From Entophlyctis helioformis (Eukaryota > Chytridiomycota > Chytridiomycetes > Chytridiales > Chytriomycetaceae), in NCBI GenBank assembly GCA_025526915.1, contig JAHLKH010000182.1, forward strand, positions 1-55,420: 55,420 nucleotides of DNA, given 5' to 3'. Position 1 is the first letter of the stretch; each line of letters starts with the position of its first letter. Positions 12,975 to 35,662 of the stretch are shown here, piece after piece. The position numbers and the translations under genes are program-made. Under the pieces are notes generated by a model. That model worked only from the letters and a program-made list of their open reading frames with translations, had not been told where the DNA came from and ran no database searches.

Positions 12975-15900
12975 CTAGTCGTCAGAGCCACGCTGCTTCT
13001 TGCTGCGCGATCCGCCAGACGACCGCGACGCCGCCGCCTCGTCGCGCGCACGCTTCTTGCCCATCTCGCGGAAGAACTCCTTGGACCGCTCGGCACCCAT
13101 CTTCTTGTCCATCTCAGCCACCTTGGCCTTCTTCTTGTTGTACTCGGCACGCTTCTCCTTGGTCTTCTCCTTGCGCTTCTGGGCCTTGTCGTTCTTGATC
13201 GTGTTGATCGTCTGGATAAGCGTCGCAATCTTGCGCTCGTGCGGCTCCATGACCACGGCGCGGCGCTGCATGAGCGTGGGCTTCTTCTGCTTGCTGAGCA
13301 GCTTGGGCTTGGACGCGAACGGCAGGTTGGCCTGCAGGGACTTGGGCACCTTGAGACGGTTGAACCGGCGCTCCTGGCGCTCGATGGGCTTGTAGAACGA
13401 GTCCTGGTTCTGCTGCAGACGCACGCCCTCCTCCTTGCGGAGCATGCCCGTCGTGCGCATGCCGCGCCAGCCAATCTTGTTCGACAGCAGCAGCGACGTC
13501 ACCGGGTTGTAGAACTTTTTGGGCTTGACCGGGTACCAGGCACGCAAGAAGATAATGTCCGATGCAAGCACCTTGTCCTCGAACGTGGCACGGAACGCGC
13601 CCTCGGGTTTCTGCAGCGCCTTTTTGACCTGGCCACGGATGCCACTGACCGTGCGGATGCTCGCGCCTTCAAACTTGGCGACTTCGAGCGACGAGTTGAA
13701 CATGTCCTTGACAAAGGCCGTGTTCTTGAACACCTTCATGGGCGTGCCCGTCAGCTTGAGCTTCTTGACCACCTCGGTCGATCGGTCAATGTCAAGCACG
13801 ACGCCAGTCGCGCTGATGCGGAAATCGGCGCTCTTGTCTGCAACGCTCTGCAGACAGCAGAAGCCCGTGTTCTGCGGCGTGACGGGGCCGTAGAACGTCG
13901 CCAGACAGTGCATGTGCTCGGGCGTGTACTTGAGCATGCGGTTGCGCGTCGGGTCCGTGTTGATCGAGTACAGAGGAATCGTCTGGAAACGCCGCCAGCC
14001 GAGCGAGAAGATGAGCGGGTCGTTGGTCTTGAGAATGCGCTTGTACCAACGGTGTTTCTTGATGCGAACCTGCAGCAATCACCAAGCGAGCCGTGGCAGA
14101 GTAGGCTGTGAGCAGCCGGCATCTGCCACAACGATCAAAGCCAGTCCAGCCCATGCTTACCTGCACAAAGCCAAACGTCTGCTCCGTCGGCAGCAGGCCG
14201 CCCACAATGACTGGGTAGTCCGAGTTGAAGTTGACTGAGAACTCGCACGGCATGTTGTCGAGCACAATGCGCACGTACGTGCCAGCGCGGTATCCCTCAA
14301 TCTGAGCACGCATCTCGGGATCCTCGTCCTCAAACTCGGTCCGGTTGATCTGCTGCTGCCTCGCCATCTCCTCCTTGGCATTCTCGTAAAAGTTGCCGCC
14401 GTCCTCGCCCTCCTCCTCGTCGTACTCCTCGTCAAACTTTTTCCGGAGCTCCTCCTTCTTGCGTGCATTGGCATCGCGCTCCTTGGCAACGCCGTCGCCG
14501 CCCTCGTCGTCTTCGTCCTCTTCGTCACCGCCCTCCTCCTCGTCATCGTCACCAGCCGGCTTGCCCTTGCTCTTTGCACCAGCCTTGGCCGACTGCGACG
14601 CCTCGGGGTTCTCCAGATCCTCAAAGTCGCCATAGACTTCGTCGTCGCCGTCGTCAACCATCATGTCGGCATCGCCCTCCTCGCCTTCGCCGTCTCCGCC
14701 GTTGGCAGCCGCGTTCGACCGCTTGCCAGTCACAAAGCGGCTGCGCAGGCTCTCGAGGAACTCGTCGTCTGCCCACACATCAAGTGCAGACGGCTCAACC
14801 TCGACCTTGGCCGTGTCGACAAACAGAAGCGAGCGACGCGCAGCTGGCTCCACGCGACGCTTGATTGCAAACAAGCCGTCCTCGGTGAGCTCGGCTGCCT
14901 TGGGCCGGGACAGACCAGGTGCACCGTTGGCGCCAAACAGACTGTATGCCTCGTCGCCGTACTTTTCCGGGTTGTACACGTAGTCGGACAGAACAATGCG
15001 CTGCCGGCCGCTGAAATTGGCTGCCGCCTTGGCCTCCATGTTGCTCTTCCAGCGCAGTGATCCGTCGAGCTCCACGTCGATGCCGCCCTCATCACCATCC
15101 TCGCCTTCGTCGCCTTCGTCTTCGTCCTCTTCTTCGCCAAAGCCCTCGTCGTCATGGCCGCGATCAGCGCGGTCCTCGTTCTCGTCCTCGTCGCCAAGGT
15201 CGCTGTCACTCTCGGCGTAGGGAATGGATGCCGGCTGGCCATCATCATCGTCGTCGCCGCCCTTGGCCTGGTACAGACCGCGAGCAACGCGTCTCCGCCG
15301 ACGGTTAAAGGGATCAACAGCATCAGCATCCTCGTTGTCCTCGTCCTCATCCTCATCGTCGTCTTCATCGTCCTCGTCATCCTCATCGTCATCGACTTGG
15401 GCACCAGCCTCGTCGTCATCCTCATCGTCGTCGTCATCGTCCGACTCGGCCTGGGTTCTGAGAACGCCCTCGGCATCACTGGCCAAGACGAGCTTGGATG
15501 CATTAAAGATACGCATCTGACTGGCCTGGACCTGGTCGGCAATGGTCGACGAAGCGCCTTGCAGATGCATCACCATCTGCTCGCCCACACCGGCTGTGTT
15601 ATTGCACATCAAGCAGAGTCAGCCACCGCTTGGCACGGCAAAAACACACAACACAATGCCACAAACGCACCGTATTCGCCAGCCTCCTCGTCGTTGGGTC
15701 GGGAATAGTTTCCCGGCACGTTGATGTAGACGGCATCCTTGTCGTACAGAATGCCACCGACATCACTCATGGGTGCGTAGATGAGCTTGTGCTTGTCCGT
15801 TAGGCGCTTGCGCACCTTATCAGGGATCGGGCACGGATCTTCAAGGATGCTGATGGACGAGATGGACTGATCGCCAACACCGGGGATGTGGACCTGCACG

Positions 15901-33185: not shown

Positions 33186-35662
33186 ATGATCCTGAATGTG
33201 AAATTGGCAGACGTCTCGCTTGTGGAGACCGAGACGCAATACGTGTCGCTGATGCTCGAGCAGCCCGGTGCCGATCCGCAGTCGTACTCAACAGAGACCT
33301 GCAGCCTCACGCGCAGTCCGGCATTCTCAAAGAACACGTTCCAGTTCCATGTGCTCGATGCTTCTTCGGCTGCGACAACGGCACCACCGCAAGCCCCGCA
33401 ACAGCCATCTGAGCCTGACGAGCAGCAATCGACGAGGAAGAAGAACAAGTCGCGGTCAGCTGCACCAGCCGATCATAATGGCACGGCCTCTGATATCCAC
33501 AGCGACACACAGCTGGTGTTCTCGGTTTGGCTCGCGTCCAGCCACGGCAAACCCCTTTCGACACCAGTCCTCCTGGGCAGCGTGCCTGTCTCGCTGTCAC
33601 CCATATGGAGCAAGCTCAAGTCCGCGTCATCGCCCGTTGGATACGAGATTGACGTGCCTGCCGCGGAAACGCGGCCAAAGACCGGCCTGTCGTCACTGTT
33701 TGGCTCCAAGCACGATGCTGCCAACGTTGCGACGCTCACATTCACACTCGGTGTCAAGCCGGATCCGCCACAGACCCTGCCCGCATTGCCGCATGCAGCA
33801 GCCCATCGCCAGCAAGACCGTTCCGGGGGCGACAGGAATGCGACCGTCACGTTTGCCGCGAGCCCGGATCTGCAGCCGGGCGAAACGCGATCGTCTGGAG
33901 CCGCCAAGCCGCCGCCGACATCAGCAGCCACCAATGCAGCAGCCTCGTCATCGCCAGCCAAAGCGTCGGTTGCATGGGACCGATCTGACATGAATGCATC
34001 GACATCGACATCGGCATCGGCATCCAACGCCAACGCCAACGCTGTGACGCTGCCGTCCATGTCCATGTCAAGGCCGGCCACCACACCGCCAGGGTCAAAA
34101 CACCGCACACAGCCACAGTCACAGCCACAGCCAGACGTGGCTTCATGGACGACGGCGCAGCGGGATATCGAGCAACGACAGCAGCTCATTGACCGACTGC
34201 TTGGAGAGCTGGACAGCCGCACCGAGGCGATCCGCAAAGTGGGCCAAGACCTTGTCCATCTGCGCCAGGTCAACGAGGAGCAGGAAGCAGAGATCGCGCG
34301 ACTGCGCGCCAGACTGGACCAGTCGGAGATGTGCACCAAACGACTCATGAACACTGCGGATGTCGACATGCTGTCACTGGGCGAGCTCCAACGCCGATAT
34401 GATATCCTTTTTCTCATCGCCTGCCTGCTTGTTTGCCTGCCTGCCTGCCTGCTTGCTTGTTCGCTTGTGGTCTTTGAATGATATGCCATGGCTCGGTGGG
34501 AGAGAGGCATCCGGTGCCTTGACAATCCTGTGCACTCTCTCTTGTCGACAGGCTGCAGGGTGCGCTGGATCTCAACAAGCAGATGTCGGGCGAGCTGGAA
34601 GACTACCGCGTGCAGGCATTCGAGGTATTGCTGGACAGCGCGACTGTTTTGTTACAGTACCATGCATGTCTGACTGCTGGCGTTCATACGATCGTGCGTT
34701 CATGCGATCGTGCTGGCGGGGGGTACGGGGGGTTTTGCTGATACAGAAAGGCGACATGGAACGACGGTACAATGAGATCCGGCACGCACACACGGCGCAG
34801 CAAGCGTACGTGCTCAAGCTGCAGGAAACGCTGCAGGCCAAGGTCGGGCAGTTTCCCAAGACTGTGCGCAAGCAGGAGCAGGTGATTGCCAAGATGGAAG
34901 GGCTGCTGCGAGTGGCGCTGGCAGCCACCGACGCGGGCGATGTCGACCAGCTGCTCGAGGCGACCAAGCGCGAGCCGCTGACGGGCGATCAGCGGATGTG
35001 CGAACTGATGGTGCGCGAGAACCGCGCGTTGAAAGGGCGGCTGGCTCTGTTCGAGACTGGCACGGGGGCGTCAGCGGATAGCGGCACCACCGACGCGCGT
35101 GTGCGCCAACTGGAAAAGCAGCTGGAGGATGCACAGCAACGGTATGCATTTCTGCTGATTGACGATTGCACTGCGCAGATGAGTGACATTGGTTGAGATA
35201 CCCAGCGTGGCAGAGCTTGAGCAGCGATCGTCGCCTGCCAAGCCAAGTGTCACACTACCAGGCACCAGCGATGGTGGGCGTGGCGATTTCCTCGAATACA
35301 TGCGTGCTGAGCGGGCCGAGGCACGGTGCAAGTCACTCGAAGACGAGGTAGCAGGGCACTGATGATGCTGCGTATGGCAGCCCGATGCTGACGCTGAATG
35401 GGCAAGCTTGTGAATTCTGCACGCACGTATGGCGGCCAGATTGCAGATCTCAAGAGACTGAATGCCGAGCTCAAGGCTCGCCTTTCGACCCCAACAGCTG
35501 GTGGCACGAATCTCTTGTCGCGGTCGTCGGTGGCACTTCCTGATATTGACCGCAAGGTACACCGTTCATGCCGTTGCTGCTGCGTTCATGACAGCAGACA
35601 TGCAACTGACATGGCGGTGGTCATGGGATGGGCAGACATCTATCCAGTCAGGCACGAGCTAG
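33186..35662 (+). CDS. Coiled-coil protein with C2-like N-terminus, CCDC33-like
   Basis: Proposed exons 33186-34401, 34536-34624, 34747-35141, 35206-35347, 35407-35556 and a short last exon near 35648-35662. The N-terminal 190 residues have alternating hydrophobic beta-like strands starting MILNVKLADVSLVETETQ, as in divergent C2 domains. A Ser/Ala/Asn-rich linker follows, and then a long coiled coil (QLIDRLLGELDSRTEAIRKV, LVNSARTYGGQIADLKRLN). The arrangement resembles CCDC33-type ciliary/sperm proteins, which would suit a flagellated zoospore. That assignment rests on layout and is tentative. The intron after exon 1 fits AT-AC minor-class signals (separate entry). The last exon is uncertain because several acceptors give a quick stop. 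Confidence 0.65.
34402..34535 (+). other. Candidate U12-type AT-AC intron
   Basis: The intron starts ATATCCTTTT, the minor-spliceosome donor consensus, and ends in CAC. TGCCTTGAC at 34515-34523 matches the U12 branch consensus TTCCTTRAC in 8 of 9 positions, with the branch A 13 nt before the 3' end. Splicing leaves phase 1 and joins ELQRRY to VSLVDRLQGALD, continuing the coiled coil. Within the last exon codons only one GT donor (GTCACT, about 34373) has the right phase for a conventional CAG, and it is weak. Confidence 0.7.

Follow-up and report, generated by a model that had tools for sequence, protein, structure and literature searches.

A probable U12-type AT–AC intron, and a genome-wide set of its kind, in the chytrid fungus Entophlyctis helioformis

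Introduction

Is a stretch of 134 nucleotides in a chytrid gene an intron of the minor class, one that begins with AT, ends with AC, and is removed by the U12-dependent spliceosome? The stretch in question, positions 34402–34535, lies within 55,420 nt of Entophlyctis helioformis DNA that were analysed in full and that we refer to as ‘the window’ (contig JAHLKH010000182.1 of assembly GCA_025526915.1, forward strand). An earlier note on this DNA had put forward a candidate U12-type AT–AC intron here, unusual for a fungal gene, and had predicted from it a working minor spliceosome. The candidate has held up, in a fungus whose phylum diverged early. Its splicing signals, its reading frame, its agreement with a deposited protein and the presence of 17 further introns like it elsewhere in the genome lead us to conclude that 34402–34535 is almost certainly a minor-class AT–AC intron removed by the U12-dependent spliceosome. 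In what follows, we describe the intron and its gene, the class of introns to which it belongs, the components that might splice them, and the ways in which the class resembles, and differs from, minor introns known in other organisms.

The intron and its gene

The gene occupies the forward strand. In the deposited model the first exon of the coding sequence runs from 33252 to 34401, and there is a further in-frame ATG at 33186. The second coding exon, 34536–34624, continues a coiled-coil frame, both by our reading of the frame and in the deposited protein. It is followed by a conventional intron (GTATTG..CAG, 34625–34746), which is used in the deposited protein, and by a third exon deposited as 34747–35196. 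The segment 35142–35205 looks like an ordinary GTATGC..CAG intron; the deposited model runs into it and stops inside. We considered the product to be a C2-plus-coiled-coil, CCDC33-like ciliary protein, an identity that no Pfam family above the cut-off backs and that we have dropped.

Between the first and second exons the earlier note had seen the full donor consensus of the minor class, a branch site matching at eight of nine positions and 13 nt from a terminal CAC, and a splice that restores the coiled-coil frame. All three readings stand. The minor-class donor is ATATCCTT, and the intron opens with ATATCCTTTT (34402–34411). The consensus for minor-class branch sites resembles TTCCTTRAC and lies a short distance before the 3′ end of the intron; here, TGCCTTGAC (34515–34523) matches it at eight of nine positions, and the branch adenosine, A34522, lies 13 nt from the last base of the 3′ splice site, CAC (34533–34535). 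The upstream frame (33162+3k) is left in phase 1 and taken up again in phase 1 at 34536, with the AC terminus in frame.

Phase alone did not decide between this splice and a conventional one, because an intron of the GT–AG kind, from GTCACT (34373) to CAG (34551) and removed by the major spliceosome, is in phase too. It has phase 2 on both sides, keeps the frame open, ends at a normal acceptor, and gives a product that reads VDMLLQGALD. The earlier note had set nearby GT–AG options aside as weak or out of phase; for this one, ‘weak’ seems apt, since the other donors in the gene are GTATTG, GTATGC and GTAGCA, and ‘out of phase’ is not. The deposited protein of the gene, E. helioformis BC831DRAFT_97556 (P0001), reads LGELQRRYVSLVDRLQGALDLNKQ. 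The conventional splice would remove SLGELQRRYVSLVDR, which is present in that protein; its product is not the one deposited. Holding the other deposited exons fixed, we tried introns of at least 30 nt with starts from 34341 to 34482 and ends from 34401 to 34598. A single one, 34402–34535 (AT..AC), gives P0001 letter for letter, and no intron with a GT donor in this range yields the deposited product. The conventional splice also leaves the ATATCCTTTT introns found across the genome, described below, unexplained, and we regard it as very unlikely.

Gene finders do not normally predict AT–AC introns, and so the deposited gene model was probably built on transcripts. When residues 325–530 of the AT–AC-spliced product were used to search for homologues at E 0.01, the sole match was the protein's own record; since the coiled-coil part matches nothing else, the window junction is without cross-species support. 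If removal of the intron follows the known minor-splicing pathway, U11 and then U6atac would pair with the donor ATATCCTTTT, U12 would pair with the CCTTGAC branch site, A34522 would attack A34402, and the exons would be joined past the AC at 34535.

A genome-wide class of AT–AC introns

The donor ATATCCTTTT occurs at 49 sites in the 29.57-Mb genome, versus one site for the reversed pattern; compared over the first 120 nt, the 49 comprise 42 different sequences. CTTGAC is present within 200 nt of 21 of the 49, one of which belongs to a second, near-identical VPS11 locus. A candidate was accepted when it combined the donor ATATCCTTTT with the branch site CTTGAC and an AC end in frame. Eighteen of 21 candidates qualified, and these are AT–AC by construction of the search. 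The other three (L003, L010 and L040) were dropped, either for want of a convincing exon frame or because they lie antisense to a P450-like frame.

The 18 accepted introns are 98–188 nt long. Two are in phase 0, 11 in phase 1 and five in phase 2, the same order (1>2>0) that has been reported for minor introns (PMC10639083). Branch adenosine and intron end are 11–27 nt apart; TGCCTTGAC is the most frequent branch 9-mer (6 of 18), and the 3′ splice site is CAC in 10 introns and TAC in eight. Keeping the intron would introduce an in-frame stop in 13 of the 18, and a stop or a frameshift in 16; the remaining two, L032 and an intron on L009, could be retained without either. On L009 (G000:C9, minus strand) two accepted AT–AC introns, whose donors are at 15594 and 14473, are 1.1 kb apart and may belong to the same exportin-like gene.

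A search with the donor ATATCCTT followed by CCTTRAC after a gap of 40–100 gave 11 matches, versus one in the control. Six of these are among the 18 accepted introns, two (L010 and L013) are undecided, and three look coding. L011 and L016 are identical in sequence around the match, and L011 and L017 lie within open frames. Neither L010 nor L013 has an open frame from −150 to +210; L013 has none from −60 to +180 either, and by eye is open from the donor onward. With L010 and L013 undecided, donors other than ATATCCTTTT may also be in use. At position 1501 of L013 stands ATATCCTTCTT, then, 95 nt on, TGTCCTTGAC, with no open frame across the interval; this may be a minor intron that uses another donor.

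Could this set of motifs mark a spreading mobile element, an introner, rather than old minor introns? The donor, the branch site and two further motifs (discussed later) are stereotyped, and 16 of the 49 donor 10-mers fall in one dispersed repeat, as might be expected of such an element. That repeat, however, lacks CTTGAC within 200 nt, and no copy of it is among the accepted introns. No two of the 18 have more than short stretches in common (at most 38 nt, at 76% identity); they are not copies of one another, and they vary in length, in phase and in the genes that they interrupt. An introner origin is extremely improbable on these grounds, and we continue to treat the 18 as minor introns.

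Two features of the genome were noticed along the way. The dispersed repeat carries ATATCCTTTTGTAGC and is devoid of minor-intron signals; its 16 sites are L004, L005, L025, L026, L028, L034, L039, L042, L043, L047, L051, L054–L057 and L059. In addition, G000:C61 3248/46287 (the locus of a 65K-type RNA-recognition motif, or RRM) and G000:C209 1925/32107 are inverted copies on the same contig, 98–99% identical, and equal scores at C117/C226 and at C250/C323 suggest further near-identical pairs. Pairs of this kind suggest joined haplotypes or true palindromes.

Support for the individual junctions

Eight of the 18 junctions have outside support: that of the window gene through its deposited protein, and seven others through homology. 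For the other 10, the acceptor comes from the frame and from reading by eye. Several of the genes that host accepted introns are essential in well-studied eukaryotes. Five Pfam domains extend across junctions: IBN_N (importin; E 2.2e-6), in a gene that by our reading is IPO9-like; VPS11_N (VPS11; E 3.6e-15); VPS51_Exo84_N (VPS51/EXO84; E 1.9e-12); Prefoldin (E 2.6e-17); and EAP30 (VPS36; E 1.7e-14). Among the remaining accepted products, Pfam shows no domain above the cut-off that crosses the junction; an Sds3 domain ends before it. Alignments add detail. In PFDN5, five prefoldin relatives align gap-free at the junction, VPLTSS/LYVPG. For eIF2B-beta (best E 2.3e-6) and POLD1 (E 2.7e-11), PDB chains likewise show no gap at the junction, and the PDB match to VPS36 (E 7.4e-10) has one gap near it. 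The exportin-like, importin and VPS11 products matched nothing in the PDB.

For 13 of the 18, no AC or AG other than the chosen AC offers an open end of the required phase and frame. Another open AC or AG end of the same phase and frame is present in L018, L020, L044, L048 and L050. Homology rules out the alternative in L048 (PFDN5). In L050 (POLD1) the alternative is an AG 3 nt further on, which would cost one residue and is possible.

Three genes were tested for a deposited AT–AC product, and one, the window gene, has it. For PFDN5, no Entophlyctis protein is among the matches listed (120 of 565; proteins of up to about 154 amino acids). For VPS36 there is likewise none among the matches listed; the search returned one protein, from B. 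salamandrivorans. This EAP30-family protein (P0122) lacks five residues beside the place of the Entophlyctis AT–AC junction, and another 25 further on. With these residues absent, P0122 neither confirms nor refutes the junction. The P0122 gene model may itself have mishandled an intron of the AT–AC minor class.

Minor-spliceosome components

The predicted working minor spliceosome is supported by the 17 further accepted introns (for seven, homology spans the junction) and by a homologue of the minor-spliceosome protein 65K, for which the earlier note had proposed a search. Its U12 and U6atac RNAs were not found, in searches that had no positive control. A probe for the C-terminal RRM of U11/U12-65K, searched against the genome, revealed a 65K-type C-terminal RRM encoded at C61:3248–3490 (E 3.1e-13; next distinct locus, E 4.8e-5). 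The best PDB relatives of this RRM are structures of RNA-binding protein 40 (3egn and 5obn; E about 7e-13), which we take to be U11/U12-65K, ahead of RNA-binding protein 41. U11/U12-65K and RNA-binding protein 41 are unique minor-spliceosome proteins (PMC11039992). A crude motif scan saw no N-terminal RRM nearby.

For the RNAs, the Rfam U6atac and U12 models were run over the genome and scored at 46 of 752 and 42 of 234 initial candidates, respectively. There was no match at E 0.001, and the controls gave no signal anywhere; with the controls silent, non-detection of U12 and U6atac shows neither absence nor divergence. Core patterns of U12 and U6atac, allowed three mismatches, occurred at 0, 0 and 0 sites in the genome, again with no positive control. 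A looser U12 core occurred at eight sites versus 10 in the control, and cmscan of the eight loci returned no snRNA, only four sub-threshold miRNA models. The window contains no Rfam family at gathering score. The CHHC zinc finger of U11-48K (PF05253) was found in none of three candidates at E 0.001, using a 25-position model whose only working control was an archaeon.

These results bear on another reading, in which the minor machinery has disappeared and the AT–AC introns, although genuine, are handled by the major spliceosome. The searches that returned no U12 or U6atac would fit it. The donor and branch site of the introns, however, are those of the minor class (major-class AT–AC introns carry ATAAG-like donors), and the genome encodes a 65K-type RRM. 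We give splicing by the major spliceosome scarcely any credence, and favor removal by the U12-dependent machinery.

Distinctive features of the introns

Minor introns with GT-type ends were not seen in this genome with the donors searched. The GT-type donor GTATCCTTTT occurs at seven sites (five of them distinct) versus four in the control, and CTTRAY (Y = C or T) follows none of the seven within 210 nt. GTATCCTT combined with CCTTRAC gave one match versus one in the control, compared with 11 versus one for the AT version. The minor introns of E. helioformis display a strong bias to AT–AC, and a bias is not proof of exclusivity, because GT introns with other donors would escape the search. The branch site is also stereotyped: CTTAAC occurs within 200 nt downstream of none of the 49 donors.

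Two motifs recur inside the introns. CCTC lies between +11 and +24 (its first base at +13 to +16) in 12 of the 18, and four times in the 1692 positions of the remaining interior. CCAGA falls 20–42 nt before the branch adenosine in 11 of the 18, and nowhere in the remaining interior of 972 positions. The binomial tails, about 1e-15 for CCTC and 2e-9 for CCAGA, must be discounted, because the motifs were picked after looking. Dinucleotide shuffles lead one to expect CCAGA in 1.5 introns, and it is not the commonest 5-mer. The window intron has neither motif.

The genome-wide features of the E. helioformis set may amount to a variant of the minor class. It is conceivable, although we consider it doubtful, that they reflect a minor spliceosome specialized for AT–AC introns. 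Such a machine would recognize the ten-base donor ATATCCTTTT and a branch site fixed as CTTGAC, would use CCTC (at +13 to +16) and CCAGA (upstream of the branch) as recognition elements, and would have snRNAs changed beyond the standard cores, perhaps with GCAAGG in place of GTAAGG in U12 to match the fixed G.

Comparison with known minor introns

The U12-type AT–AC introns of animals, plants and Mucoromycota have, like those described here, the donor ATATCCTT, a CCTTRAC branch site near the end, an AC terminus, and phases in the order 1>2>0. The minor introns of these groups are mostly GT–AG or mixed, whereas in E. helioformis GT-type signals are not above control. AT–AC introns make up about 26% of minor introns in humans (PMC10639083), 13–26% in four plants (PMC7367187) and, by the first of two methods, one of three in Rhizopus and nine of 17 in Phycomyces (PMC2846911). 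A bias to AT–AC is common to E. helioformis and Blastocystis, in which 77% of minor introns (196 of 253) are AT–AC (PMC10639083). Those of Blastocystis average just under 42 bp in length and 49% of them are in phase 0 (PMC10639083), whereas those here are 98–188 nt long and 11 of 18 are in phase 1.

Among fungi, minor introns have been reported in Spizellomyces punctatus, Neocallimastigomycetes, Rhizophagus, Basidiobolus, Rhizopus and Phycomyces (PMC10639083, PMC2846911), the first two of which are, like Entophlyctis, chytrids and their kin. For at least some of the groups named alongside Spizellomyces and Neocallimastigomycetes, many and perhaps all of the minor snRNAs are stated to be present (PMC10639083). 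Entophlyctis is absent from the main text of PMC10639083, and the literature searched held no paper linking it with minor introns. Because minor introns and minor snRNAs of chytrids are already in print (PMC10639083, PMC2846911), the E. helioformis set is not the first of its kind; it widens a distribution that was already known.

How might so biased a set have arisen? Probably, GT–AG minor introns were lost or turned into introns of the major class, and the AT–AC ones were left over. AT–AC introns are reported to be poorly recognized by the major spliceosome and so to be largely spared conversion (PMC7367187), which would explain such a residue.

Significance

The mechanism that we propose is ordinary; what is unusual is a strongly AT–AC-biased set in this host. 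The set is a strong sign that E. helioformis has kept the second, minor, splicing machine that most fungi lost. Fungi have mostly lost minor introns, and E. helioformis is a further chytrid with a sizeable set of them, strongly biased to AT–AC. This makes it testable whether minor introns persist because AT–AC ends resist conversion to the major class. In a genome of 29.6 Mb, a set this small and stereotyped is also a compact system for asking whether U12, U6atac and U11 have co-evolved with their sites.
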